Source: a virus
Length of the DNA stretch: 48,466 nucleotides
Direction: 5' to 3' (one strand)
Virus record (IMG/VR): IMGVR_UViG_3300037258_000827
Coordinates: 1-48,466 of that record
A program made the translations under genes and the position numbers. Below, in pieces: positions 25,201-47,054 of this stretch (within the stretch, counting starts at the first letter, position 1; each line of letters starts with the position of its first letter). The notes under the pieces were generated by a model that was not told the origin of the DNA, searched no databases, and saw only the letters and a program-made list of their open reading frames with translations.

Positions 25201-26165
25201 CCCTAGGATGGCAGCTGGGCTTTTTGAGAGAATATGGAGGGGCGGCATCGGACCTGGGCGAGACACTGACGAAGAAGGGATCGCTTTCGACAAAGACTCG
25301 TGCCGGCCTTCTCGACCGGCCACTGTTCTCCTTATTCTACACAACCCAGGCACTGGCTTATGGCGGCCTTCTAACCTGGGCTATGACCGGCAAGCCGCCG
25401 ACTCAGCTGCTGGATTACGTCTACCCCAACGTCGGCACGGATAGGGAGGGGAAGACGAAGCGTGTCTCTACCATGTTCTACCCCAGGGAATTCTGGGCCA
25501 TTGCCAAGCATGTTCAGAACCAGGGTCTTCTAGGCGGTGCTGGCGACTTGGTTCGAAGCAAGAGCTCCGGCGTCCTCGGCCTTACTGCTGAATGGGCGAC
25601 AGGAGTCAACGGCCTTGGCCAGGAGATCCGTGATCCAAATTCTCCTCCATTTCAGAAGCTCGAACAGACGCTGGCGAATTCTCTGAGCGAGTTCGAGCCG
25701 ATTTCGCTGGAAGCGATTAAGCGTGGAGGGAATCCTGTGATGAGTACCCTGGGCTTCACTCCTGCACCTAGGTATATCACAGAGACGAAATCTCAGTCCC
25801 TGATCCAGCGAATGTATGATAAGTATTATCAGGGAAAGGAAACTCCCTATGACCGAGTTCAGAAGTCTAAGGACATGTCTGTCCTTCGTCAATCCTATGC
25901 CGATGCAGATCAGGATAAATTCGACTCAACTCTGGAGAAAATGAGGGATAAATTCCAGCTCTCCCCCAACGAAGAACAGAGGATTGTTCAGTCTCTTAAC
26001 GAGTCTAAGGACAGTGCCTATGTTAAGATGTTCAAGAGGCTCTCATGGCAGGAACAGAAACAAGCTCTGGACAAGATGACAGCCGACGAGAGGGAGACAT
26101 ATCTTCCCGTCTCGAATGTGGACCATCTCCGCTATTCCTACATCCCACCGGGGGACCAACAGTGA
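22227..26165 (+). CDS. Giant internal virion protein (1312 aa)
   Basis: This is the largest gene of the window. An N-terminal disordered Pro/Lys region is followed by an amphipathic part ('GMAKGMLSGLVDLGGLAVEG'), a charged coiled-coil region around 265-345, and a long helical C-terminal half with hydrophobic stretches ('FLKNALIPFKLGFSLFHPLH', 'TQALAYGGLLTWAMTG'). The second half resembles large phage polyvalent proteins with an LPD38-like domain. I see no lysozyme or transglycosylase signature. Ejection-channel protein is the best guess. Confidence 0.65.
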   Translation: MPTYTADEVLRMMKAPILPTAKPLTAKPGKVLSIADVQKMQPSSAKPLTVSQRWENAKSDVKDFVVSAAKTYEKGEQAGLRHPVDYSWGMAKGMLSGLVDLGGLAVEGVSGGAKALLEMKHPGENFQSGMDAGKKLVNKIAPTIQKHLQSSGPTQDTANQVLGMIPQAIQAAGDTGFDLTGSPFVGAATQAVGTLVSLLGMKGLTDPIAALRHSSESAKPVERPLPSPSEELSAEFEGEDFEPDEPAPATKHADEYTPPRETNVKEINSGLQKQLKDIEDEKEEIESRMSNLTHDRHESGLSPGQADAQREALAAKHMKLEEQAKNLQGRITPASKPAAVVKPQEKSLEQLTAELWNVAHQTRESLTRTDQNASGESSASLEAQSRVREEESRGRARFLVDPDGKATPLKGVDAADVKAPSGHIIVQANVGANPWTILDRGGLPSTHAQGLLARAGKNLDGALAESKAGKIGGQQRIAPPAKVQKEDPVVFQENGKLVTRSVVKQAFNISDKAMSLPGLKFLRLHAEQTLEEIQRHIAPESLGPEAKAAAAILAKNMAESQMREANYYTKSAVRRSFWNSRMDNAADFIHRYEKGGKFDDPVLQNAADAYRGWNTKIANQDTVDHIEYEPVDNYLFHAFENGDEVKDFLGAKYRGKWGDPGFTKDRVFDLYDQAIKAGFKPKYTNPEDIMLARQHASDIAHMRIQALRDLADAGLAVQIRKGMKGAPDGFASGEFRAPNGERYWVNNKAAQILHNAWNTKSLWQSPGVAGKTFRGAMFLKNALIPFKLGFSLFHPLHVATIDNATGMVRASKELLSGTKSPTEWMRDILKSATYVDSIGQTRAGYRLINLWKGKVPEGELTDVDRQSLQWMVEGGFVPEMPVQYRTGALAKFKDAVQRHSATAAWHAPFAVIDAMQKPLFQVWIPSLKSASFLSDVKTAIAADPTLLDNPLKRQIAFRKLAKSVDNRYGEMAYSTLFWNRWMKDVAVANTLSLGWQLGFLREYGGAASDLGETLTKKGSLSTKTRAGLLDRPLFSLFYTTQALAYGGLLTWAMTGKPPTQLLDYVYPNVGTDREGKTKRVSTMFYPREFWAIAKHVQNQGLLGGAGDLVRSKSSGVLGLTAEWATGVNGLGQEIRDPNSPPFQKLEQTLANSLSEFEPISLEAIKRGGNPVMSTLGFTPAPRYITETKSQSLIQRMYDKYYQGKETPYDRVQKSKDMSVLRQSYADADQDKFDSTLEKMRDKFQLSPNEEQRIVQSLNESKDSAYVKMFKRLSWQEQKQALDKMTADERETYLPVSNVDHLRYSYIPPGDQQ

Positions 26166-27472
26166 AACTCCTCATGATGGATCTTGAATCTTCCTGTGGA
26201 ATGGACTTGGTCATGCGCGCGCAGCAGCACGGACATGATGTAGTTTACTGGACTCCGGAGCCTGCTCCCGTCGGCACGGGTCTTGTGAGGAAGACACAAG
26301 ACTGGGAGAAATACATGAAGTGGGCGGATCTGATCGTCCTGACAGGGAACTGCAACTATCCTAAAGGATTTGAGGAGTATTTCACCTCTGGCTTCCCAAT
26401 CTTCGGCACACCACCGAAGGCGGCGGAGTTGGAACTGGATAGAGGCAAGGGACAGGAGATTTTGAAGAAATATGATATCCCTGTCCTGCCTTATAAAGTC
26501 GTCTCATCGGTGAGAGAGGCGCAAGAGCTCTTGGTAAAAGAGGGCCGGCCGTTCGTTATGAAGCCTTGGGGAGGAGAGGGAGACAAGGCTATGACCGCCG
26601 TTCCTCGGTCAGTGAATGAAGGGCTCTACATCCTCGAGTGCTGGAAACAGAAGGGCCTCTTCAAAGGCCAGCTCATGATGCAAGAGAAAGTGGAAGGAGT
26701 GGAAATTGGAATCTCCGCCTTCTTCGGCCCTGGTGGGTTTACAAAGGCGAAGGAAGAGTCCTTTGAACATAAGAAGTTCCTGAACGATGACCTGGGAGAG
26801 AATACTGGGGAAATGGGCACAGTCATCCGACATGTGGATGAGTCGAAGCTTTTCGATCTTCTCCTCGATCCGCTGAGTGATTATCTCCACCTTGTCGGCC
26901 CGGTGACGGATGTTAGTATCAACTGCATCATTGATGGGGAAGGAACACCCTGGCCACTGGAGTGGACGATCCGCCTTGGCTGGCCGGATTTCTGCATTCG
27001 ACAGCCACTGATTTACTCTGACCCTCTGATCTGGATGGCAGATTTGGTCTATGGGAAGGACAGTCTTCATATTTCAAAGGACGTTGCCGTCGGCGTCTTA
27101 ATGGCACATGGGGACTTCCCCAGGGAAGAGGATGATGCGAAGGAGTGGTCAGGATTCCCTGTCTCTTTAGGAAGTGATCATAATTCAAACTGCGTCCACT
27201 GGCAACAGGTTATGATGGGGGAGGTACCGAGGGAAAGTGGGAAGAGGATTAAAGAAAAGACGGTTATGGTCACTGCAGGGCAGAGACCACTGATCGCAAC
27301 TGGAACAGGGGAGGTTGTGAAGGTTGCTGCGAAGGAGGCTTATAGGACGGCTAAGGCAATTCGCTGGCCTTCTAATGTAATGTATAGGACTGACATAGGA
27401 AAACGGCTGGAGAAGGATCTCCCACTGATTCAGAAACACGGCTTCGCTAAGGGGATGAGGTACGACAGATGA
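26162..27472 (+). CDS. PurD-like ATP-grasp ligase encoded in the virion module
   Basis: The GTG at 26162 overlaps the previous stop (436 residues). Landmarks of phosphoribosylamine-glycine ligase occur in order: 'PFVMKPWGGEGDKAM', 'QEKVEGVEIGISAFFG', 'DDLGENTGEMGTVIRH', 'VAVGVLMAHGDFP', and the C-terminal 'AYRTAKAIRWPSNVMYRTDIG'. The metal-binding E-F-N of PurD is E-W-T here, and GDPE is altered to GWPD. It probably ligates an amine or amino acid to a carboxylate using ATP, but the substrate may differ from purine synthesis. No other purine gene is nearby. Confidence 0.75.
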   Translation: MKLLMMDLESSCGMDLVMRAQQHGHDVVYWTPEPAPVGTGLVRKTQDWEKYMKWADLIVLTGNCNYPKGFEEYFTSGFPIFGTPPKAAELELDRGKGQEILKKYDIPVLPYKVVSSVREAQELLVKEGRPFVMKPWGGEGDKAMTAVPRSVNEGLYILECWKQKGLFKGQLMMQEKVEGVEIGISAFFGPGGFTKAKEESFEHKKFLNDDLGENTGEMGTVIRHVDESKLFDLLLDPLSDYLHLVGPVTDVSINCIIDGEGTPWPLEWTIRLGWPDFCIRQPLIYSDPLIWMADLVYGKDSLHISKDVAVGVLMAHGDFPREEDDAKEWSGFPVSLGSDHNSNCVHWQQVMMGEVPRESGKRIKEKTVMVTAGQRPLIATGTGEVVKVAAKEAYRTAKAIRWPSNVMYRTDIGKRLEKDLPLIQKHGFAKGMRYDR

Positions 27473-33442: not shown

Positions 33443-36025
33443 TCAGCAATTCCCCCAGGAGATTGGGGAAGAGGTGACACTGAACGGAATGACAAGTGGG
33501 TCTTCATATGGGATTGTAACATGAGAGCAGGCAAGGATGCCAGCAAGCGATTTATCACGAAGACGAGAGGGGAACTGGCCGCCGAGGGAGTCGTGGACTT
33601 GGATCAAGGTCTGGACATCATCAGGACCGAAGTCCATCGTTCCACGAGTTAGCTTCTCGTCGATATTGAGCCAGATCTTATTGATGACTATAGAGACTGT
33701 GGATTGTGGGAGCCATGCGACAGCCTCAGGCAGGATAGTATCAACCCTATCGAAGATGTACCATCTGTACCCGAAACGATTCTCCACGAAATGGAACTGC
33801 CCGATTTGTTTTTCAACTCTATTATGCCATCTCTGGATACCAGGATGCGCTCCAAACCAAATTTTCTGAGCTCTGTCCACTTCATGGATAGTTCGGCCAG
33901 TGTGGGCAGCCATTGTTCTGGCACTTCCAACGTAGTTTGTTCCATGACAGAACACTTTTGAGAATTCTCTGACATATTTAAGTGGTCCTCTGTGATCAGG
34001 GTATTTTGGATGGCTCTCGACAAGTTCGGAGAGTTCAGGGGGATCTTTTCCAAGCAGTGTAAAAGAGTTGAGTAAGTGAATATCTACGCCTTTCTTAAGA
34101 GCGTCTTTGAGAAGTTCATCTTCTGCCTCCCAAGCTACGACCTGAAGGTCAGCTCGATCAAGGTCTCCATTCCACCAGTCATGTGATGGATCTGGTACAA
34201 ACATTGCCCGGAGATTTGGCAGAGCATAGGGATCTCCAATCGCGGCGATATTCCCCCGTGCCTTAGCTTTACCAACACTCTTAGATTTCTCCGAAGGAAT
34301 GTTCTGTAGATTTCCACCTGAATCGAATGCGTCTTCTGAAGACGAGAGACGATAAGTGACAGGGGCGGACTTTCCACTGGCAGAGCCTCCGATGTTGTAG
34401 GAACAGCGCATTCGGCCGTCGTAAGAGAGCGGCTTCTGAAGGAAGCTGGAGAGGAATACGCCGAGGGTTCGGATGTCAGAAATGCAATTGATAACGGGCT
34501 TGAGGACCGGCTCTCGCTTGGCGATGGTTTGAAGAGCATCGTCGTTGAGAGTGACTCGTGCCGGCTGGCCCTTTTTGGCCCTGGTCATGACAGGAGTCTG
34601 GCCGAGGTCCTGGTAGAATAGCTTCTGCATCTGACCGTTAGGGCCGTTGGAGCCGGGGTTGAGAGGATAGCCGAGAACGTCGATTAAGAACTGATGCCGT
34701 TTGGCACTCTCCTCCATTACTTCCAGGATGAGTTCGTCCCGCATTTTCAGATCAATGCGCACGCCCTTGAGCATGGCCTTGAGAACTGGCCAGAAGAAAG
34801 CTTGTTGCTGAGCATAGACAGCCTCGAGTTTCAGCTGCTTCGCAATATCGATCTCAGTGACACCGCACTCATCTGTATAGACACAATCTTCACAGTTGTA
34901 GAACCAACCAGGATCCTCGCCGGCGGCTGTGTCTAGCTCTTTCCCTTCATCCTTCCACCAAACGTAATAGTTGCAATAAAGTGAAGCTTGATAGGAGATC
35001 TTTTTCGGCAGGTCGCTGAAGAGCGAATGCTGCGCAATCATCGTGTCCTGAAGATTACGCGTTCGCATCGCTGGGACGAAGTGCCACCAACGCCAAGTGT
35101 ACTGACTATCATAGAGTAGATTCTGGCCGACGACGAATACATACTTATGCGTGAGCAGTCGACAGAGAAGGAATACAATCTCGCTTTCCTCTTCTTCAGT
35201 CCAATATCCCACCTGTCTCTCAACACACATAAACGGGATACAGAGCGCTTCAGTGAGACTCCACGAAATTCCTGCACAAGCAATGTGGCTTGAGCGAGTC
35301 TCAAGGTCGAACGACAGTCGTAACTGCTCTCCACTTTCAAGTCGATTGAATAGCCACTGGAGTAAGGAGACTGTGAGATTAAAAGAGGGACGAATGTGGA
35401 ATTGCCAAGCTGGTTTCGGGTAATCTTCTCCGTTGATAAAACGCTTAGCCCGCCGGAAGTCAGATATGACAGCCGGCCGGTGGGGCCACTCACGAAGCAC
35501 TGCAGCGGGATGGATAGTGGGAATGACCTTTCGATCGGGGAAGTCGGTGGCATAGAGCATACTCCCTCGCCAGTTGGTGATGCCCCACTTTCCTGTAAGT
35601 GCCCACATGGAGGCGTTGCCGACTGGGATGATGACATTTGGCTTTACTTCTCTGATCTCACTCTTCAGCATCTCGTATCCTTCGACGAGATAAGGATGGA
35701 CTAGCTGGCCCCGCATTAAGAAGAATTTCCTCGGATCGAAACCAGCGTCTATTCTCTTCTGATCATCCTTTGTTATCTTCTTTGAGAATTTAAGGGAGTC
35801 TCTCATCCAGAGCTTCATCTCATTGTCTGGCGGACAATAGCGAGCGAGGTTAGTGACGAAGCACTCATTCCTCTCAATGCCGGCCTCCTTGAGCATCTTA
35901 GTGAGCTCCCAGCCAGAGGTGCCGACGAACGGCTTCCCCTCCCGGACTTCCGTTTCGCCGGGAGCTTCGCCTACTATCATTATTCTAGCTGGAACTGGCC
36001 CGTCAGGGCGGACGGGGTTAGTCAA
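33443..36025 (-). CDS. Uracil-DNA glycosylase fused to family A DNA polymerase
   Basis: About 860 residues from a TTG with GAGGAG upstream. Residues ~12-195 are a family 4/5-type UDG: 'GEAPGETEVREGKPFVG' and 'IHPAAVLR', but only Cys55 and Cys64, too few for the usual Fe-S cluster. The 3'-5' exonuclease follows: DLE (240-242), 'GQNLLYDSQ' (~300), 'YNCEDCVYTD' (~375-384). Polymerase motifs: 'TYRLSSSED' with 'NLQNIP', motif A 'GDLDRADLQ' (Asp620), motif B R685-K689-H693-Y697, motif C 'VHDSLG' (~809). It replicates the genome and can probably remove uracil. Histidine replaces the usual Phe/Tyr/Leu in motif B. Confidence 0.88.
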   Translation of the reverse strand: MTNPVRPDGPVPARIMIVGEAPGETEVREGKPFVGTSGWELTKMLKEAGIERNECFVTNLARYCPPDNEMKLWMRDSLKFSKKITKDDQKRIDAGFDPRKFFLMRGQLVHPYLVEGYEMLKSEIREVKPNVIIPVGNASMWALTGKWGITNWRGSMLYATDFPDRKVIPTIHPAAVLREWPHRPAVISDFRRAKRFINGEDYPKPAWQFHIRPSFNLTVSLLQWLFNRLESGEQLRLSFDLETRSSHIACAGISWSLTEALCIPFMCVERQVGYWTEEEESEIVFLLCRLLTHKYVFVVGQNLLYDSQYTWRWWHFVPAMRTRNLQDTMIAQHSLFSDLPKKISYQASLYCNYYVWWKDEGKELDTAAGEDPGWFYNCEDCVYTDECGVTEIDIAKQLKLEAVYAQQQAFFWPVLKAMLKGVRIDLKMRDELILEVMEESAKRHQFLIDVLGYPLNPGSNGPNGQMQKLFYQDLGQTPVMTRAKKGQPARVTLNDDALQTIAKREPVLKPVINCISDIRTLGVFLSSFLQKPLSYDGRMRCSYNIGGSASGKSAPVTYRLSSSEDAFDSGGNLQNIPSEKSKSVGKAKARGNIAAIGDPYALPNLRAMFVPDPSHDWWNGDLDRADLQVVAWEAEDELLKDALKKGVDIHLLNSFTLLGKDPPELSELVESHPKYPDHRGPLKYVREFSKVFCHGTNYVGSARTMAAHTGRTIHEVDRAQKIWFGAHPGIQRWHNRVEKQIGQFHFVENRFGYRWYIFDRVDTILPEAVAWLPQSTVSIVINKIWLNIDEKLTRGTMDFGPDDVQTLIQVHDSLGGQFPSRLRDKSLAGILACSHVTIPYEDPLVIPFSVTSSPISWGNC

Positions 36026-36414: not shown

Positions 36415-37734
36415 CTATTTCAGGGATTCAAGACGCTTGCCGGCAATCCCAGCCGCCGAGGCGTCTTTCTCTATTCCCGTAGCCAGTACTTTAAGTTCAT
36501 GGGCGGCTGGGAAAATCGGGCCAGAACCACAAAAGGGGTCAAGAGCAGTATCGCCAGGGCTAATACTACGAAGCAATAGATCGCGGTAAAGACCAACAGG
36601 CTTCTGCGCATGATGACCCAGATTCTCTTCTGAAGGATAGACCAGAACATCGGAGTATAACCTCGTGACTTTTCTATCGCCTTTAACTGCGAAGAGGATG
36701 GCTTGCCATTTCCTCTGTGGCCCGTGCTCAGGCCAGGGTGCCCGCATGCCGGAGGGATTGATCCAGATGAGAGGGGTTCGGAATACTCTCCAGCCTTGAA
36801 TTTCTATCAGGAGCTTCAGCTCGTGGAAGTGATCTATGTCACAGAAACAATATAGATGGGCAGAAGGCTTTGTAATCCTCTCTGTGAGACAGGAGAAGTC
36901 CTTCATCAAGGCTACCCAGGATTCGTAGCTATCATCGTAGAAGTGACCGCCAGGAGTCTTGCCGCCGGAGTCAGAGAAATCTTGAGCATCTATTCCGTAA
37001 GGAGGATCGGTGATGATCACGTCGAACTGTTTTCCTTGTTCACAGAGCGTACGCATTATCTCTATACAATCTCCCTGGAGGAGAGTGTGGCAGGCACTGG
37101 TGAATGTCGGCCCGAGGCGAGTAGCGAGTTCAGCGTTCTTCTGCGCCTCTTCCTTTCGCTTGAGTACTTTAAAAGCCTCGTTTATGTTCTTCGCAGCTGC
37201 GACTTCAGGGATGTGAAGGTTGCGAGAGACGATGATTTCCTTTCTGGTGAGGTCTTGAGAGCCGGCAGAAGCCCCGTGGACTTCTACAGAGAGCTTCTTA
37301 ATAGAAGGAGGCAACTCGCCTCGACGCTCTGCCTGGCCGGCACGGACCTCTTGAAGCTTCTTCATCGCTAAAGCGCGGTCTTGCCAAGAGAGATCCTCTC
37401 GCTTAATATTCTCTTCCAGCTCAATAGCAAAGGCCTCGATTGGGTCAATCTCGCCGAGATAGTTGCAAGGCAACTGGTCTTCAGGAAAGTACTCAGTCCC
37501 ACATTTGACTTGCCGGCCGGTCCCCCAGAGATACTTGATTGCATTCAATCGCCTCCAGCCGGCGACCAGGATGGTCTGCTCTTTATCATCCTTTCGGATG
37601 ATTAGAGGATGGAGGAGGGAGTAGGTGTCGATTGAATCTCCCAGCTCGATAATAGCCTCGGGAGTAAACTCCTTCCTCTGGCGTTCCACTGGGATAACGA
37701 GCTCGGAGAGAGAGATTCTGCGAACAATTGTCAT
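36415..37734 (-). CDS. ParB-like domain fused to a DNA methyltransferase
   Basis: The product is 439 residues. N-terminal ParB/sulfiredoxin-type domain: 'PLIIRKDDKEQTILVAGWRR' and 'ELEENIKREDLSWQDRALAM'. The methyltransferase follows with DPPY at 243-246 and 'DPFCGSGPIFPAA' near the C-terminus; catalytic motif before SAM motif is the beta-class order (N6-adenine or N4-cytosine). It probably protects phage DNA from host restriction, and the ParB part may guide binding. No partner endonuclease is adjacent. Confidence 0.85.
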   Translation of the reverse strand: MTIVRRISLSELVIPVERQRKEFTPEAIIELGDSIDTYSLLHPLIIRKDDKEQTILVAGWRRLNAIKYLWGTGRQVKCGTEYFPEDQLPCNYLGEIDPIEAFAIELEENIKREDLSWQDRALAMKKLQEVRAGQAERRGELPPSIKKLSVEVHGASAGSQDLTRKEIIVSRNLHIPEVAAAKNINEAFKVLKRKEEAQKNAELATRLGPTFTSACHTLLQGDCIEIMRTLCEQGKQFDVIITDPPYGIDAQDFSDSGGKTPGGHFYDDSYESWVALMKDFSCLTERITKPSAHLYCFCDIDHFHELKLLIEIQGWRVFRTPLIWINPSGMRAPWPEHGPQRKWQAILFAVKGDRKVTRLYSDVLVYPSEENLGHHAQKPVGLYRDLLLRSISPGDTALDPFCGSGPIFPAAHELKVLATGIEKDASAAGIAGKRLESLK

Positions 37735-37794: not shown

Positions 37795-38250
37795 TTACAC
37801 CTTCGCAACCGTATCTACTCGATCGTAGATATCCCCTTCATACGGCTCCTGCTTGATCCGACACTTCACTGCCCGACCTTCCATTGAACGGGGGGAGAAG
37901 GCTACGCCGTCCTGGTTCATTCCCAGAGCATCTCTCCAGCGACGGAGCCGACCGTTCTTCCCAGGAGCCTGGTCGATCATTCCCTGATCTGTGACATCCA
38001 GCATCACGCCGTCGAGCAAGATGACCTTGGGGAAGCCGACGAGCTGAGCAGCAACGGTCGGATTCTGAGAGAGGTCGAACTCGACGGGGATCTGGAGACG
38101 CGTCCAGGGCTTTCCATCCTTCTCGCCCTGTTTGATATCGACCTTCCCAATCGTGCCGACGAGCTCTACACCAGCAGGGATGGGAGGACGCTTCACGAAG
38201 GCAGTTGTGACGGCAGAGTCGAGAAGGAGATTTGGATCGAATTGAGACAT
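37795..38250 (-). CDS. SSB-like replication/recombination protein
   Basis: The ATG at 38250 opens 151 residues beginning MSQFDPNLLLDSAVTTAFVK. 'PAGVELVGTIGKVDIKQGEK' with 'WTRLQIPVEFDL' reads as an OB-like beta core, as in phage single-strand binding or DUF669-type proteins that accompany Sak4-like ATPases. It should coat single-stranded DNA. It ends RVDTVAKV and lacks an acidic SSB tip, whereas a different protein (44260) has one. The upstream leader carries six WATACA boxes. Confidence 0.6.
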   Translation of the reverse strand: MSQFDPNLLLDSAVTTAFVKRPPIPAGVELVGTIGKVDIKQGEKDGKPWTRLQIPVEFDLSQNPTVAAQLVGFPKVILLDGVMLDVTDQGMIDQAPGKNGRLRRWRDALGMNQDGVAFSPRSMEGRAVKCRIKQEPYEGDIYDRVDTVAKV

Positions 38251-38253
38251 TTT

Positions 38254-38343
38254 TGTATACTCTGTATAATAAAGTTGGTTGATTTCTGATCTGTATAAGC
38301 TACGTTTGTATTCGAGTGTATTACCTCGTCTGATGAATGTATT
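38254..38343 (-). promoter_or_regulatory. Six WATACA boxes in the leader of the SSB-like gene
   Basis: On the plus strand TGTATA occurs at 38254, 38263 and 38292, and TGTATT at 38307, 38317 and 38338. They fill the 105-bp gap between the ATPase stop and the SSB-like start. TTTATTATAC near 38264-38273 (minus) could serve as a -10 region. A protein- or RNA-binding array that controls this gene is plausible. Confidence 0.55.
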
Positions 38344-38355
38344 TGCCTTGAACAC

Positions 38356-39237
38356 TCACTTCACACCAGCGGTCAGCCGGCCCCCACGGCTTGTCCACTT
38401 GTCTAAGATCTGTTTGAAATCTGGAACGATGTTCTCTGCAACGGGGAGGTTTCGGGTCTTTAGGTCGCAGAGAGCATTGGCTGTGGACCAGGTCCAGACG
38501 GTTCCCGTCCTGACGGAGAGGATCACGTCAGAGAACATCGGGGGAATCTTTGGAGGGAGAGCTCGACCGAGGGAAGAGACGGTTACCTTGATCCCGCCCA
38601 TAACCTGATCGACTTCTCTTTCCACATGGGAGATGAGGATGAAATGGCAGGGGCAGCCGTCGGCCAATATGCGCAGGGGCTTCTCAACCTGATCCTGGGC
38701 AATGCCCCAATCTGCCTGGGATCGAACGGGCTTATTCCCGACAACCATGCTCATGGCCAAGTTCCCCATCCCTGTCAGACCGTCTATTACGATCGCACGA
38801 TTTGGCCCCCAGGAATCTACTGGGCCAAAGGTCTGGCCAGTGCGCTGGTCGGTGAAGTTCGAGAGAATTGTGAGGAACTTGAAATAGTTGTTTTTCTTAT
38901 GCCGCTCGAAGTCCTGTTTCTTGTGAAGAGATTCCTGAGTGACCGAGCCGATCTCTTCAGCGCCTTTGGCAAGAGCGGCAAAGCCGCCTTCCGGCTGGCC
39001 CAGACGATGCCAGTGGAGATTCGGAGGAATCGGCTTGCCTCGATCGGTGAAATAGCCGATGAGGGACTCCATGCCGCTCTCAAGGGCGAGGAAATAGACC
39101 TCGAGCTGAGGGGAGTAGTCGACTAGAGTGCCGACGGCATGGGTCTTTCCCGTGCCAGTAGGGCCTTCCAGTAATACATTGACGCCTGGTAAAGCCGAAA
39201 GTTCATTCGATACCGCGGCTTGGATCTGAGTGTTCAT
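38356..39237 (-). CDS. RecA-fold ATPase, Sak4-like
   Basis: About 293 residues from ATG 39237 (an in-frame TTG lies nine bases upstream). Walker A GPTGTGKT at about 25-32, Walker B 'NRAIVIDGLTGMG' near 168, and 'CHFILISHVERE' near 205 as sensor strand fit the short RecA-fold ATPases of phages (Sak4/AAA_24). With the SSB-like and nuclease genes beside it, it likely promotes annealing or recombination-dependent replication. Confidence 0.75.
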   Translation of the reverse strand: MNTQIQAAVSNELSALPGVNVLLEGPTGTGKTHAVGTLVDYSPQLEVYFLALESGMESLIGYFTDRGKPIPPNLHWHRLGQPEGGFAALAKGAEEIGSVTQESLHKKQDFERHKKNNYFKFLTILSNFTDQRTGQTFGPVDSWGPNRAIVIDGLTGMGNLAMSMVVGNKPVRSQADWGIAQDQVEKPLRILADGCPCHFILISHVEREVDQVMGGIKVTVSSLGRALPPKIPPMFSDVILSVRTGTVWTWSTANALCDLKTRNLPVAENIVPDFKQILDKWTSRGGRLTAGVK

Positions 39238-39634
39238 CTGTTTCAAATGCCTTTATGTGAAGAAGCAACTCTCTGCGAAGCAGGGGCTCGGGAAGGGTCT
39301 CCAGAAGGCCCCAGTCTATATCAAATACCACATCACTGTCAAGTAAGGAACCGGGGATTGGATGAAGGGAACGATCTGAAAAGCCGATTCGTTTTGTCGG
39401 CTTTCCACATCGTTCACAAGAGCAAGCGATGACTTGATATTCTTCCTCCCCGACCTTCTTCCCGTCGAGCTTGATCTCAGCCCAAGAACGACGGCAGAAG
39501 GGGCAGAGGAAGACTCTGGAGCGAGCAGGGTAGAGAGCGCCGAGGCCGGCATCTGTGCGATACATCTCCGGCCGCTTGGAGAGATGGAAGCCAAACGGGC
39601 CGGAGATGGAATACATTATAGTCTTGGTTGTCAA
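39203..39634 (-). CDS. Zinc-ribbon protein, unknown
   Basis: The product is 143 residues from a TTG overlapping the previous stop; ATG 39616 is an alternative start. 'FLCPFCRRSW' and 'IACSCERCGK' supply two C-x2-C pairs for a zinc ribbon. The C-terminal half is acidic and helical ('DIDWGLLETLPEPLLRREL'). It overlaps the ATPase gene by about 35 bases. A DNA-binding accessory of the recombination set is possible. Confidence 0.6.
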   Translation of the reverse strand: MTTKTIMYSISGPFGFHLSKRPEMYRTDAGLGALYPARSRVFLCPFCRRSWAEIKLDGKKVGEEEYQVIACSCERCGKPTKRIGFSDRSLHPIPGSLLDSDVVFDIDWGLLETLPEPLLRRELLLHIKAFETDEHSDPSRGIE

Positions 39635-39894
39635 TCTAAACCTGTCTCACCAGGTGCCGTCATCACAAGATACGCCATCTCAGTAAGGGTGCGCGATAGC
39701 TCTTGACGCCTGGCCTTAGACTTTGGCAGCCAGATTGTAACAGCACTACGATCATCGTCCGCTGGCGGGTGGTGCAGTATAGGTGATGAATGCAGCATCA
39801 GTTGTACTGCATGGTAGGTCACTCCTGTGTTGCTCTTTTTAGCAACCAGGCGCGTTTCGTTCGTGAGCTCTTGACTGTAGACATTGATTCTCAT
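39631..39894 (-). CDS. Small protein between nuclease and zinc-ribbon genes
   Basis: The product is 87 residues; AGGAGC stands before the ATG, which overlaps the nuclease stop (ATGA). It has beta-like N-terminal strands ('RINVYSQELTNETRLVAKKS', 'GVTYHAVQLMLHSS') and a helical basic C-terminus. No family is recognised. Confidence 0.6.
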   Translation of the reverse strand: MRINVYSQELTNETRLVAKKSNTGVTYHAVQLMLHSSPILHHPPADDDRSAVTIWLPKSKARRQELSRTLTEMAYLVMTAPGETGLD

Positions 39895-40886
39895 AGTTTA
39901 TGCTCCTTATGCTCCACAGGATTCCATCTCCTACGCTCAAAGTAAGTATTCAACTGCGCTTGCTGATCCTGCCAGAGACAGACGTCGGCAAATGTACATC
40001 TTCCAAACCCGGCACAGGCATCATCATAAGCATGTCGCCATCGACCTGTCTTCCAGACCCGGACGATTTCCTCTATCCAGTCCAGAGTCTCTTCATACCA
40101 GCGAGCCATCTGCCATTCAGGAAACATGACAATGGCTTGCTGAGTCTCGTACTTGGTCTTGAGGATGGAGACGCCTCGGATGATAGCGCCTTGAGCTTTT
40201 ATCCCACTCCGATCGCACCCCCAGACGTAGCCCAACAACTGCCCACGAAGGTCCCACTTCTTTGACCAGGTTGCTCCGAGGGAGGTTGTGGTCTTCTCGT
40301 CTGTCACCAGGATGGAGCCGCCGTAATTCTGAATTGCGTCCATCTTCCCGCAATAAAGGATCGGGTTGCCAGTGACTGGGTTGTTGATGGGGAGAGGCTC
40401 GGAGAAAGAGAATTCAATCGCCCGCTTGCCGCCGGGCATGAGGATGGGGTAGGCGTCGTCGTCGTTGAGGGAATAGTTCTCCCAGTAGAATTCGAAAGCT
40501 CCCATCATACGGTCGAGAGACTTCGCTGTGTCGGTCTCGAACTCTCCGTAGAAGGTCATCAAGGCTTGAAGGCCAAGGCCGATTGCCTCCTCACGGGAAG
40601 CCCGTGGGCCAGAAAAACGAGAATCCCAGCGGACTTTATCCCCACGGATGACTGAGGGATCTCCCGGCTCGAGAGCAACGACGGTGCCGGTGATCCGCTC
40701 TCCAGTGTAGAAGGCCTTGCGGGTGACTTCTAAAGCCTTTGCAAAGGCCCCGCCGGCATGGAGATGGACGGAAGGCTCTTTAGGCTTCCAGTCCTGGATG
40801 TATTCGAGGAAGAACTTGGCTGGGCAAGCTTTGAATGTTGCCAGCATGGAAGAGTCAATGAAATCAGGAAAATACGCGTCGCTCAT
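39891..40886 (-). CDS. PD-(D/E)XK nuclease, Cas4/RecB-like
   Basis: The product is 331 residues. 'YCGKMDAIQNYGG' and 'ILVTDEKTTTS' give the D...DEK catalytic core; 'LHAGGAFAKALEVTR' has a His/Gly segment before it. A lone Cys at 'KACPAKFF' and the C-terminal 'CAGFGRCTFADVC' are the four-Cys arrangement of an Fe-S cluster in Cas4/AddB-type nucleases. It probably resects DNA ends during recombination or degrades host DNA. Confidence 0.8.
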   Translation of the reverse strand: MSDAYFPDFIDSSMLATFKACPAKFFLEYIQDWKPKEPSVHLHAGGAFAKALEVTRKAFYTGERITGTVVALEPGDPSVIRGDKVRWDSRFSGPRASREEAIGLGLQALMTFYGEFETDTAKSLDRMMGAFEFYWENYSLNDDDAYPILMPGGKRAIEFSFSEPLPINNPVTGNPILYCGKMDAIQNYGGSILVTDEKTTTSLGATWSKKWDLRGQLLGYVWGCDRSGIKAQGAIIRGVSILKTKYETQQAIVMFPEWQMARWYEETLDWIEEIVRVWKTGRWRHAYDDACAGFGRCTFADVCLWQDQQAQLNTYFERRRWNPVEHKEHKL

Positions 40887-41477: not shown

Positions 41478-41680
41478 TAGAGATCCGCCAGGAGAGCATC
41501 CGTGTCGATCACTTTCTTCGGCGACTTGCCGGCGGCCTTCTTCTGCACAGCAGCGGCCTCTCTTCCTTGGCGTAAGAGGATGATGGCTTGCTGCATGTCT
41601 TCCTTGGTGATGGAATTGTCCATAACCTTTCTCCTCCATTCAGCAAGCTTCTGAGTAACCTCAGGGCTGTACATAGTCAT
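41477..41680 (-). CDS. Small helical protein with DTDALLADL tail
   Basis: About 67 residues (start at 41680 or 41674). 'MYSPEVTQKLAEWRRKV', 'TKEDMQQAIILLRQGREAAA' and a Lys-rich linker precede the C-terminal VIDTDALLADL. Related small phage proteins have the same layout of helices, basic linker and acidic Leu-rich tip. The tip is nearly identical to the C-termini of the paralogues at 1391 and 43506. Confidence 0.75.
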   Translation of the reverse strand: MTMYSPEVTQKLAEWRRKVMDNSITKEDMQQAIILLRQGREAAAVQKKAAGKSPKKVIDTDALLADL

Positions 41681-41688
41681 AAATAATC

Positions 41689-42102
41689 TCACTCGTTAAA
41701 CTGTTTTTGCAGTTTAAGTTCTTGCTTAATGGTATTTTGTATTTCCCTTAACTTAGGGGAATACTCCTTTTTCTGTTTAATGTTTACTGTATGCAGTAAA
41801 ATTGCCAGAGTTGCCTCGTTATATTTTACAGTCATATACGGAGCTACTTTGCTTAAACAAGCACAAGCATCTTCTCTAGCAATACGCCATACCCATGTAA
41901 GTTTGTTTCCTGGCCTGTTATAGGCAGGATACATAGCTCCGCCGAATAACTCACGTAGCTGAAGCAAAGGCTCTGTTACAGTATTTAACACACTAACTGT
42001 AATAGCATAACTGCCATGTCCTCCTTCCAAATGAATACAGCCTTCTCCATCTATAAAACCGGCTGCCCAAGCAAGCTTTTCTCCTTTGGTTCTAAGCTCC
42101 AT
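41689..42102 (-). CDS. LAGLIDADG-type homing endonuclease
   Basis: The product is 137 residues with GGAG before the ATG. 'LAWAAGFIDGEGCIHLEGGH' is a LAGLIDADG motif (AGFIDGEG) with the catalytic acid; only one copy is seen, so it should act as a dimer. 'VSVLNTVTEPLLQLRELFGG' and 'KLTWVWRIAREDACACL' fit the family. The gene is visibly richer in A/T than its neighbours, which suggests recent arrival. Confidence 0.8.
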   Translation of the reverse strand: MELRTKGEKLAWAAGFIDGEGCIHLEGGHGSYAITVSVLNTVTEPLLQLRELFGGAMYPAYNRPGNKLTWVWRIAREDACACLSKVAPYMTVKYNEATLAILLHTVNIKQKKEYSPKLREIQNTIKQELKLQKQFNE

Positions 42103-43505: not shown

Positions 43506-44147
43506 CTAGGCAAGCCCTGCCAGGAGGGCATCGGTATCGACGTGAGCGGTTTTTGCCGCCCGCTCCGCCTCGAGCTTCTCGACGATCGGCTTGATCTTTG
43601 GGGAGTTCTTCAGGGCGACCTTCTCGGCCTGAGACTTTCCAGAGAGGAACTCCTTCACCTGCTCGGCAGTCCGAGAGCCGGCGGCGAACTCGACCAGGGC
43701 TTTGATCAGGATAGAAGTGCCGGCCATCGCGCCGCCTTCACGCTTGACGTTCCACTCGCCCTTCTCGAGCCGCTTGACCAGATCCTCGACGGCAAGGACC
43801 TGATCGTCGAGTTCATCTTCCTTATACCCGGCAACCTCGTCACCGAGCTTCTGCTCAGCACCGTGGGCCGCGAACTTGAGGACGAGAGCCTCGGGGATCT
43901 TGAAAGAGACAGTCCGACCGTTGCGGAAGTCCAGGCGGATCGTCGGATGACCAGTGCCGTCGGCAAAGATCGAATCCTTCAACATCCGTCGCTTGCCGAC
44001 GAACTCGACCTCTCTCCCGTCCTCCATCTTCACCTTCTCCGCACCAGGCTTGGTAGCCTCAGCAGGAGCCCCGCCAGCGGCACCGTCGGCAATAGCGGCT
44101 TCCATCAGAGAGATGGCGAGCATTCCTGCAATGTTTCGATTCAGCAT
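43506..44147 (-). CDS. Early protein with DTDALLAGLA tail (paralogue B)
   Basis: The ATG at 44147 follows CTGGAG (213 residues); the longer frame from 44246 lacks a ribosome site. The middle has 'TIRLDFRNGRTVSFKIPEAL', then charged helices 'AVEDLVKRLEKGEWNV' and 'TAEQVKEFLSGKSQAEKVAL', ending VDTDALLAGLA. Helices, order and tail align with the protein at 1391-1927. The N-terminal ~25 residues are hydrophobic and Ala-rich but do not form a clear signal. Function unknown. Confidence 0.75.
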   Translation of the reverse strand: MLNRNIAGMLAISLMEAAIADGAAGGAPAEATKPGAEKVKMEDGREVEFVGKRRMLKDSIFADGTGHPTIRLDFRNGRTVSFKIPEALVLKFAAHGAEQKLGDEVAGYKEDELDDQVLAVEDLVKRLEKGEWNVKREGGAMAGTSILIKALVEFAAGSRTAEQVKEFLSGKSQAEKVALKNSPKIKPIVEKLEAERAAKTAHVDTDALLAGLA

Positions 44148-44259
44148 CTTAATTCTCCAGAAATTCGCGTGCCCTTTATTTTGGACGCGGCCACGCATCT
44201 CGTCGCGTGGAGGATCATATCGCATTGGAATGCGAGGCTCAATCAAGGGATTGAATTGG

Positions 44260-44691
44260 TTAAAAAGGGATGTCGTCGTCAGATGCTGATGGCGTCAAAG
44301 GAGGAGGAGGATTAAGAAGTCTCTCTATATTCTCTCCGTAATTTGCCCAGTTCACGTAGAAAAGCTCTGCGACAAGTCGCTCAATCGCAGTGGCGAAGGT
44401 GTGCTCGGAATGGTAAGGAGCCTTGGGGTCGTCACCTTCCTCCCCCTCGCCGGAGAAGTTCTTATCCCACTCGTCGACGGCAGACTGGGGGATGTCTCGG
44501 GCCTTACAGCCAAAGGCTTCAACCAATTCGTGGATGGCTATAAGGACGCTCTCGCGCCAGTCATAGGTATCCGAGACCTTAATGTTTAAAGTGTTTTCCG
44601 CTACCGAGGCTTCTGGATCGTCCCAGTACCAGTCCCCAGCGGTCGGATAGCGTTGCTGAGAATGGGGGATAACTTCTATCAAGATCTTCAT
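44260..44691 (-). CDS. HELVEA (zincin-like) protein ending in an SSB tip
   Basis: The product is 143 residues. 'LIAIHELVEAFGCKARDIPQ' (His54, Glu55, Glu58) and 'APYHSEHTFATAIERLVAEL' (His94, His97) are a conserved phage family with possible metal ligands, though not a full HExxH. After residue ~126 comes a Pro-rich linker and the last six residues DDDIPF, identical to the C-terminal tip of E. coli SSB (…DFDDDIPF). The body shows no OB-fold SSB pattern. The tip may recruit host SSB-binding repair proteins. Overlaps the previous gene by 113 nt. Confidence 0.75.
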   Translation of the reverse strand: MKILIEVIPHSQQRYPTAGDWYWDDPEASVAENTLNIKVSDTYDWRESVLIAIHELVEAFGCKARDIPQSAVDEWDKNFSGEGEEGDDPKAPYHSEHTFATAIERLVAELFYVNWANYGENIERLLNPPPPLTPSASDDDIPF

Positions 44692-44942: not shown

Positions 44943-46367
44943 TTACAGACACAACACACTCAATACTGTACTGCCAAAGGTCAATTCTCGCGAAGAGCGA
45001 GTGATTGCGACGTAGAGGATATTGCGCTCTTGCCGCTCGGCAGCTTCGCCCTGAACCCACTTCGCCGGCATCAAGTCTGGACGCAAGATGTAAACCCGTT
45101 CTGCCTCCAGCCCTTTAGCCTTGTGAACAGTGGAGAATATCGGGCCGGTTTCGGAATCAGCGAGCTTTCTAAGGGAAGAGAGAATTTCTGAAACAGTCTT
45201 GAACTGTTCACAGAATTGCTTAATCGTCTCGTACTTGTCCAGAATGGAGGCTACTTTCCCTTTGAACCCCTTGGCCTCGGCGGCTGAGACTTCCTCTGCC
45301 TTCCAGCTTTCGACCTTTGAGAGCAAGTCGGCTGAGGTTTCACAGTTGAATTTGTGGATGAATCGTTGAAAATTCTCGAGGAATTGACTTCTAACCTGGA
45401 CAGGTATGCCTTTTCTAATGTGACGAAGAATTGCTCCAAAGAGCGGAGCGTTGGTTCGGGAGAGGATAAGCATTTCCGGAGGGAAGATGTCGGGATCTCG
45501 GTCGAAGTAATGGACCGCGCCTTCGATAGCCTCTGGAGCGGCCTCAATCTGCGGACAGTAACGCTGGGCCTCCCGGACAACGGCTCGAGGACAGCGATAT
45601 GTGATGGAGAGAGGGAGCTCAGTAGCTGAAAAATCTCTCTTAAAATCGTCCATTGATGAGTGCAGAGCACCACGGAATCCATAGATAGACTGCGCTCGAT
45701 CTCCAAATCCACAGACTCGTGACCGCATACGACGCAGGGCTTCATGTTGAAGTGCATTCGCGTCCTGCAGTTCATCGACAAGGACTCCCATGTAAGTTGG
45801 GAAAGAGAAGTTCTCATAAACTGGTACCCAGAGTTGGTCGTTGAAGTCGAAAATCTCTCGGATTGCAGCGGAGCGCTGGAAGAGTTGCCAGCTTGCCTCG
45901 GCGACGCTTTGAAGATCGACGGCTGGGACATCGAGGTCGTAAGAGTCGAGGAGATCGCTGAAGCTACTGGTATCGGAGTCCTCCGGCCGCCAGGCATTGC
46001 CTTTGGCAAGAGCCACGCCTCGGACCACGGCGGAGCCGTAATCCTTCATCACTTGACTCTCAGAGCCAAACATGTCTGAAGCGATCTTCCAGTCCTTAGA
46101 CTTATCCAAGACCGCCGAGCGATATCGGGAGAGATAGAGCTTGTGCCCGATTCCATTAAAGGTCACGGCATTCAGTCCTCGAGACTTCATCTCCATCTGA
46201 ATCGGCTTGTTGAAAGCGATGCAGAGGGGAGAATAGGGCAGTCGATTGACGAGCTCTTCTAGAGTGGTTGTCTTCCCCGATCCAGCAACAGCTTCAACCA
46301 TGAGATTGGAGACTGTCTCCGTGCCGGCAGAATAGATAGAGTCCTGGAAATGTGACCAGGTTTTCAT
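44943..46367 (-). CDS. UvrD/PcrA-like superfamily 1 helicase
   Basis: About 474 residues; GGAGGGGG precedes ATG 46367, preferred over the upstream in-frame start. Walker A 'AVAGSGKTTTL' (~26-36), motif II 'VLVDELQDAN' (DELQD for DExQD), 'GDRAQSIYGFRGA' (motif III), 'TYRCPRAVV' (motif IV), 'TVHKAKGLE' (motif V) and 'LYVAITRS' (motif VI) are all present. It unwinds DNA for replication or recombination. It is short compared with bacterial UvrD. Confidence 0.9.
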   Translation of the reverse strand: MKTWSHFQDSIYSAGTETVSNLMVEAVAGSGKTTTLEELVNRLPYSPLCIAFNKPIQMEMKSRGLNAVTFNGIGHKLYLSRYRSAVLDKSKDWKIASDMFGSESQVMKDYGSAVVRGVALAKGNAWRPEDSDTSSFSDLLDSYDLDVPAVDLQSVAEASWQLFQRSAAIREIFDFNDQLWVPVYENFSFPTYMGVLVDELQDANALQHEALRRMRSRVCGFGDRAQSIYGFRGALHSSMDDFKRDFSATELPLSITYRCPRAVVREAQRYCPQIEAAPEAIEGAVHYFDRDPDIFPPEMLILSRTNAPLFGAILRHIRKGIPVQVRSQFLENFQRFIHKFNCETSADLLSKVESWKAEEVSAAEAKGFKGKVASILDKYETIKQFCEQFKTVSEILSSLRKLADSETGPIFSTVHKAKGLEAERVYILRPDLMPAKWVQGEAAERQERNILYVAITRSSRELTFGSTVLSVLCL

Positions 46368-46651
46368 GCCCCCTCCTTTATCCAAGCTTCCATCTTTTCC
46401 TTCGAGCCCCAGCAGAGACTGGGTGCTTCGTTGTAAAAGAACTTGATATAGTCAAGGATATGTATCTGGTTAACTGAATCAGCTCTTTCAAAAGTTCCAC
46501 GGAGATCATTCTGGAGAAAGGCTTCGAGGAAGTCTCCTGGCCTTCGGTGAAGGACAATATAATTTGCCACTGCTTCCAGCATGTGCTCTGGAATATGTGC
46601 CTTCTCGGCAAACTCCTTGTAAAGAGCCAGCTTTTCATCATCTTCGTTCAT
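46364..46651 (-). CDS. Small conserved phage protein
   Basis: The product is 95 residues (MNEDDEKLALYKEFAEKAHI; 'VANYIVLHRRPGDFLEAFLQ'; 'LDYIKFFYNEAPSLCWG'). This helical family is often found in early regions of phages, with unknown role. It overlaps the helicase start by four bases and the upstream stop by four bases, so all three are co-translated. Confidence 0.75.
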   Translation of the reverse strand: MNEDDEKLALYKEFAEKAHIPEHMLEAVANYIVLHRRPGDFLEAFLQNDLRGTFERADSVNQIHILDYIKFFYNEAPSLCWGSKEKMEAWIKEGA

Positions 46652-46824
46652 GCCCCCGACTCCCTATCCATCATCTTTTCCAGATGGTCGGCCATCTGGT
46701 TGAGCTGCTTAGCTAAAGCTTCCAGATAAGCGATGAAGGGAATGTGGCCTGGATCGACTCGACGAGCAGTGCTCTGCACTTGCTTGCCGGCACGACGGAT
46801 AGCTGAGATTGGTTCAGTTTTCAT
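46648..46824 (-). CDS. Very small helical protein (58 aa)
   Basis: The ATG at 46824 overlaps the previous stop and its TGA overlaps the next ATG. Translation reads MKTEPISAIRRAGKQVQSTA to MMDRESGA. The N-terminus is basic, the C-terminal half a probable helix 'AYLEALAKQLNQMADHLEKM'. GGAT stands at ribosome-site distance. The double coupling makes it credible despite its size. Confidence 0.7.
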   Translation of the reverse strand: MKTEPISAIRRAGKQVQSTARRVDPGHIPFIAYLEALAKQLNQMADHLEKMMDRESGA

Positions 46825-47054
46825 GTTTTATCCCTTGGGAATAACCTCAAGACCAAATCGGGGGAGGACTGGAGAGTAGTGAAAGCATCTAGACTGATGC
46901 TCACAGATCCATCATGATTTATCCAAGCAGCACCGATCTTTCTCTTCTCCCCAGTAGCCTTGTTCAAGGCACTGAAAAGCAGATCCGGTGGCCTTGGGAA
47001 TTTCTCATCATCCACGGTACTCTGCCCTGTTACAGGCGTTTTTGTCTTAGCCAT
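46821..47054 (-). CDS. Small early protein, unknown
   Basis: The product is 77 residues; GGAGACTCACTA precedes the ATG, a variant of the shared leader. 'PPDLLFSALNKATGEKRKIG', 'AAWINHDGSVSISLDAF' suggest a small beta-hairpin domain. No known family. It is first of a four-gene coupled group ending with the helicase. Confidence 0.7.
   Translation of the reverse strand: MAKTKTPVTGQSTVDDEKFPRPPDLLFSALNKATGEKRKIGAAWINHDGSVSISLDAFTTLQSSPDLVLRLFPRDKT

Follow-up and report, generated by a model that had tools for sequence, protein, structure and literature searches.

An SSB-type C-terminal tip on a non-SSB protein in the early operon of a Sak4-encoding phage

The C-terminal tip of SSB (SSB-Ct) is among the best studied docking peptides of bacteria, is a drug target and is regarded as a feature of SSB itself. 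In E. coli, SSB-Ct peptides bind with the carboxylate of their terminal Phe and with their aspartates to basic-hydrophobic pockets of RecQ, PriA, ExoI, RecO, RadD and DnaG. The E. coli tip is given as DDDIPF (PMC5872125, PMC5928155); its docking has been described for E. coli partners (PMC5872125), with RadD as one partner (PMC10238739). Among phages, Sak4 of HK620 requires the last six residues of the phage SSB, NDYPPF, in order to bind ssDNA coated with SSB, and its annealing activity is both stimulated by and dependent on this tip (PMC5928155). A literature search that covered few subscription journals returned no description of such a tip on a non-SSB phage protein.

The DNA considered here, hereafter the window, is the virus DNA of IMG/VR record IMGVR_UViG_3300037258_000827 (48,466 nt; positions 1 to 48,466). 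A 143-aa protein encoded on its minus strand (Table 1) ends in ERLLNPPPPLTPSASDDDIPF, followed by a TAA stop. The last residues read SASDDDIPF, of which the final six equal the E. coli SSB tip, and they stand at the very C-terminus, as in the SSB-Ct short linear motif. The arrangement NPPPPLTPSAS-DDDIPF likewise reproduces the SSB feature of an acidic tip with terminal Pro-Phe behind a disordered linker. This linker follows the family domain, which ends at residue ~126, and is the least confident stretch of the AF2 model of the protein. The exact tip behind a Pro-rich linker had already been reported in a sequence-only reading of this DNA, and we confirm it. No second SSB-type tip was found at any other ORF end within the window.

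Table 1. Features of the window, and carriers of SSB-type tips in related phages (contig handles in place of positions).
Feature	Position or contig	Strand	Basis or remark
Zincin-like (HExxE; assigned with reserve) phage protein with SSB-type C-terminal tip, 143 aa	44260..44691	-	homologues span residues 1-126
Conserved domain, residues 1-126	44314..44691	-	57-sequence alignment; AF2; weak Foldseek matches
Pro-rich linker NPPPPLTPSAS, residues 127-137	44281..44313	-	missing in most homologues
C-terminal tip DDDIPF, residues 138-143, then TAA	44263..44280	-	sequence; permuted-tip control
SSB-like protein, directly downstream of sak4	37795..38355	-	AF2, Foldseek; end VDTVAKV, without tip
Sak4-like ssDNA annealing ATPase, candidate tip reader	38356..39246	-	phrog_124 E 7.6e-14; 80 relatives
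PD-(D/E)XK exonuclease, recombination operon	39891..40886	-	PF12705 E 2.6e-9, phrog_1218
246-aa protein adjoining the zincin-like gene, likewise in L305	43506..44246	-	synteny
UvrD-like helicase, upstream of the zincin-like gene	44943..46385	-	PF00580 E 5.9e-17, phrog_1967 E 8.1e-79
77-aa protein, tipless homologue of the L285 tip carrier	46821..47054	-	50% identity over 52 aa
Zincin-like carrier	L305		
Coiled-coil family B carrier	L292, L322, L324, L328, L337, L348, L355		
118-aa carrier, tip end ELDDVPF	L285		tipless window homologue 46821-47054(-)
171-aa carrier	L356		
Related small proteins at the sak4 locus, carriers	L111, L358		

The body of the tip carrier is not that of an SSB, as the sequence-only reading had claimed. 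It has no SSB match in Pfam, PHROG or NCBIfam, and no library names it. In its AF2 model (mean pLDDT 95.1), three strands combine with four helices in a fold other than the OB fold, and the PDB matches listed by Foldseek contain no OB-fold SSB. On these two grounds an SSB fold was rejected for the 143-aa carrier, so that the protein is not simply an SSB. The body (residues 1-126) is a member of an unnamed phage family with the signature HExxE...GDDPxAPYxxEH. H54, E55, E58, D76, G86-D-D-P-x-A-P-Y93, E96, H97 and E104 are invariant in all 57 aligned members, and a degenerate DDPxAPYxxEH pattern retrieved 71 viral loci, of which all but one also have HExxE, the sole exception being cut by the contig end.

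The earlier description of this HELVEA-bearing body as zincin-like is weakly supported. The best PDB match in Foldseek is SPRTN (6mdw, E 0.09), PprI is matched as well, and viral models gave IrrE- and SprT-like matches (best E 0.012, IrrE-like). These matches are weak (TM 0.3-0.5) but mutually consistent. The zinc-binding catalytic motif HExxH, however, was not found: the family has HExxE, with E58 in 57 of 57 aligned members. As Glu replaces the second His of HExxH throughout, we use the term zincin-like with reserve, as a weak assignment from the predicted fold. In 64 of 106 loci the gene of this family adjoins a gene for a GARS-like ATP-grasp protein (~430 aa); the pair forms a conserved two-gene unit, to which some loci add large genes that are portal- and scaffold-like by appearance. 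The ATP-grasp gene of the window (26162-27463(+)) lies 17 kb away from the zincin-like gene and on the opposite strand.

The tip carrier belongs to an early operon on the minus strand. In order of transcription, its identified genes are those of the UvrD-like helicase, the zincin-like protein and the 246-aa unknown, then small ORFs, followed by the exonuclease, the Sak4-like annealase, the SSB-like protein, a ParB-methyltransferase fusion, a UDG-PolA fusion and a DUF3987 primase/helicase. In the UDG-PolA fusion (33443-36025(-)) the uracil-DNA glycosylase domain is N-terminal to a family A DNA polymerase, and the same fusion is present in contig L222 (3845-6478). The other fusion (36415-37734(-)) joins a ParB-N domain to an N6/N4 DNA methyltransferase and likewise has a homologue in L222.

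Three further minus-strand proteins of the window share a different C-terminal peptide: VIDTDALLADL (41480-41695), VDTDALLAGLA (43509-44294) and DVDADALLAGL (1394-1996). Contig L305 has ALADLDSM close to the C-terminus of two proteins. These peptides are possibly a second shared C-terminal docking tag of these phages.

The SSB-like ORF of the operon has no family match. Its AF2 model, built with 55 homologues, shows an OB-type fold (pLDDT 93.9), and its best PDB match in Foldseek is PrgE of pCF10 (E 1.2e-4), which strengthens the earlier guess that it is a real ssDNA-binding protein. As that reading had also stated, it lacks the tip; so do all 74 complete orthologues, which usually end in SVAKA or KGVAKL. 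The arrangement of HK620, with the tip on the SSB protein itself, is thus found in none of these 74.

Within the zincin-like family the tip is rare. Of 104 complete distinct members, one has an acidic-PF end, namely the window protein; the rest stop near residue 126 or carry unrelated tails. Nine homologues from cellular contigs have no tip, and no close relatives of the whole 143-aa protein, or of the UvrD helicase, were found in the viral contigs (viral_contigs, IMG/VR) or in phages. A combined pattern DDPxAPYxxEH...DIPF also retrieved no tip-bearing homologue. It missed contig L305 because the latter reads GDNAQAPYYRQH, and this contig was retrieved only through the scan for Sak4 and not through a pattern from the carrier gene. 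Its start lies inside a gene of the zincin family, which is thereby cut to a fragment of 67 aa and has the C-terminal end ELSSGSSIDPPPSEPLLDDDIPF. The gene order of L305 is that of the window (zincin homologue, homologue of the 43506 protein, exonuclease, Sak4, SSB-like), and in both the Sak4 gene (4906-5802 in L305) and the tip-bearing protein are encoded in one operon. The linkers of the two proteins have only prolines in common; DDDIPF is identical.

The tip is thus present in the window protein and in its syntenic L305 homologue and absent in those of L289, L301, L355, L222 and ~100 others. The sequence-only reading had named homologues without an acidic-IPF tail as what would refute it, and most of the family is indeed tipless; we consider this outweighed by L305. 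In a tree, the L305 fragment groups with the tipless L289 protein; a supported clade joins these two to L301 and L355 and leaves out the window protein. Because the tree places the two tip-bearing proteins apart, it suggests two separate gains of the tip as the simpler reading, although the L305 fragment is short. A shared origin of both zincin tips was set aside for this separation, which rests on the 67-aa fragment; a single gain followed by many losses may also account for the distribution.

Tips of this kind are not confined to the window. We searched the IMG/VR viral contigs for DDDIPF followed by TAA or TAG, the preceding residue not being encoded by a T-starting codon, and compared it with DDDPIF, in which two letters are swapped at equal codon degeneracy. 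DDDIPF-stop was found in at least 120 stretches versus 2 for DDDPIF-stop. Among 76 sampled DDDIPF ORFs, 16 match the Pfam SSB family and further ones belong to PHROG families of ssDNA-binding proteins; other functions are assigned to at least six, namely three SF2 helicases, an Erf annealase, a DnaB-like helicase and a DNA polymerase processivity factor (L101, L125, L131, L093, L149, L123). The tip also ends proteins of phrog_1811 (73-75 aa) in the four contigs L086, L095, L122 and L157. SSB-type tips on non-SSB phage proteins are therefore recurrent, and the window case, which had been taken as unique, is one of several: helicases, Erf, the clamp and the carriers of the window's own lineage all provide examples.

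For this lineage we assembled 80 Sak4 relatives, obtained by scanning with the Sak4 of the window and that of a relative, together with L111 and L222 (7,890 ORFs), and scored ORF ends of the form (D/E/N)(D/E)x(I/V/F/G)P(F/Y). Twelve ORFs end in an acidic tip, at 12 loci with one each and all on the coding strand; the window is the thirteenth. As L111 had been picked for its tip, the unbiased count is 11 loci (11 of 80 Sak4 loci). Three permuted or basic-tip controls on the same ORFs gave 0, 0 and 1, the single hit being a genuine tip, DDFPF. The tips sit on at least four unrelated carriers (Table 1), which are encoded directly upstream of exo in L292, L348 and L356. Family B proteins (~115-130 aa) have a GWI.L segment, a coiled coil and LLxLxAP before the acidic tip; related phages have tipless members, and the window has none of this family. 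When whole records of the lineage were scanned by pattern, only 4 of the 38 contained D(I/V)PF-stop. Most members are thus without a canonical tip, and it follows that the tip is dispensable and that Sak4 does not depend on it in general. Outside the lineage, a Sak4 profile that is itself lineage-specific gave 2 of 80 tip loci versus 0 of 71 control loci.

We propose that the DDDIPF tail probably works as an SSB-type docking peptide, carried by an accessory protein of the recombination operon, where it would provide the SSB hub in trans. The flexible Pro-rich linker would tether the docking peptide to a zincin-like accessory protein of the early replication/recombination operon, and, as the OB-fold SSB-like protein is itself tailless, the zincin-like protein would supply the tail in trans. 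A protein that ordinarily recognises SSB-Ct would receive the tip in its basic-hydrophobic pocket; through this contact, either the zincin-like domain would reach ssDNA or the bound reader would be drawn to the phage recombination complex. The likeliest readers would be the phage Sak4, whose HK620 relative needs the SSB tip, and the host SSB partners RecQ, PriA, ExoI, RecO, RadD and DnaG. Binding of the tip, the identity of its reader and its biological role are the parts that we infer as the best explanation. That the tip has moved onto another protein, as suggested by the sequence-only reading, is well supported, given that related phages carry it on other small early proteins and leave the OB-fold SSB-like protein tipless. 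More tentatively, the SSB tip may be a free-standing mobile tag of Sak4 phages with a tailless OB-fold SSB, present at most once per phage and gained independently on small early proteins (zincin-like, coiled-coil, small orphan), where it could serve as a hub in trans for phage recombination or for the capture of host factors.

A tip offered in trans could instead be directed against the host: as a free decoy it would compete with host SSB and block RecQ, RecJ, ExoI, RecO and RadD during infection. The exact host SSB consensus of the tip in the window, L305 and L111 is consistent with this, as are the patchy presence of the tip, which suits an accessory anti-host role, and a carrier body without a recognised enzymatic family. 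Yet SSB is abundant and multivalent, so that one monovalent tip would need high expression, and many tips of the lineage are imperfect (EIPY, GIPF, DFPF). Moreover, the tip occurs in the phage's exo-sak4 operon on varied carriers, which recruitment fits at least equally well, and we regard a decoy as unlikely. We are considerably more doubtful about a targeted metalloprotease, in which the tip would guide a zincin protease to repair proteins that bind SSB or, as in SPRTN, to SSB sites on DNA, for subsequent cleavage. The HELVE helix with the invariant H54, E55, E58, H97 and E104 would suit such an enzyme, and so would the best structural matches (SPRTN, PprI, viral IrrE and SprT models). However, the second zincin His is missing in every aligned member, the fold matches are weak at the E and TM values given above, and the wider family usually adjoins the ATP-grasp gene, sometimes portal-like genes, rather than repair operons. 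Cleavage of host factors, raised in the sequence-only reading, is accordingly very improbable.

The tip might also be read within the phage replisome, by the UvrD-like helicase, PolA or the DUF3987 primase/helicase, and so replace a tip lost by the SSB-like protein. The zincin-like gene adjoins that of the UvrD-like helicase, and the tips on phage helicases, a clamp and Erf elsewhere imply that the peptide is used in several settings; but the majority of the lineage has no tip, and the three proteins are purely hypothetical SSB-Ct readers, which makes this reading highly improbable. Least probable of all is a neutral tail, an extension by frameshift or read-through that spells DDDIPF by accident. 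The lack of any extension past residue ~126 in nearly all homologues would agree with it, but only ~2 exact permuted tips are expected by chance in the whole viral collection, an unrelated linker precedes the identical tip in the syntenic L305 homologue, and the enrichment is lineage-wide and restricted to the coding strand. The permuted-tip scan and the lineage controls rule out a chance origin as a serious candidate and leave it strongly disfavoured.

If phages attach the tip to proteins unrelated to SSB, then the partners of SSB can be recruited or blocked in its absence, and tips of this kind could flag uncharacterised phage proteins with a role in the recombination of host or phage.

Comparison with known systems separates what is shared from what is particular to this locus. 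PrgE of plasmid pCF10, an atypical OB-fold SSB, is the best structural match of the SSB-like neighbour, but with a sequence identity of only 12%, and the likeness is that of the neighbour and not of the tip carrier. SPRTN/SprT and the IrrE/PprI zincins share with the carrier a weak fold similarity and an HE-containing helix after a small sheet; they differ in having HExxH instead of HExxE, there is no significant sequence match, and the carrier family has a GDDPxAPYxxEH motif of its own, common to the 57 aligned members. The HK620 Sak4-SSB pair (PMC5928155) resembles the window in that Sak4 and SSB-like genes lie in one operon with an acidic-PF tip encoded nearby, but in the window the SSB-like protein is tipless and the tip is on the separate zincin-like protein. 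E. coli SSB, in contrast to the carrier, is an OB-fold ssDNA-binding protein with four long linkers per tetramer instead of one short linker; the tail of the carrier has the identical hexapeptide, a free C-terminal Phe and a flexible linker with prolines. The kind of interaction is already known, and the transplanted, apparently mobile tip is the new part.
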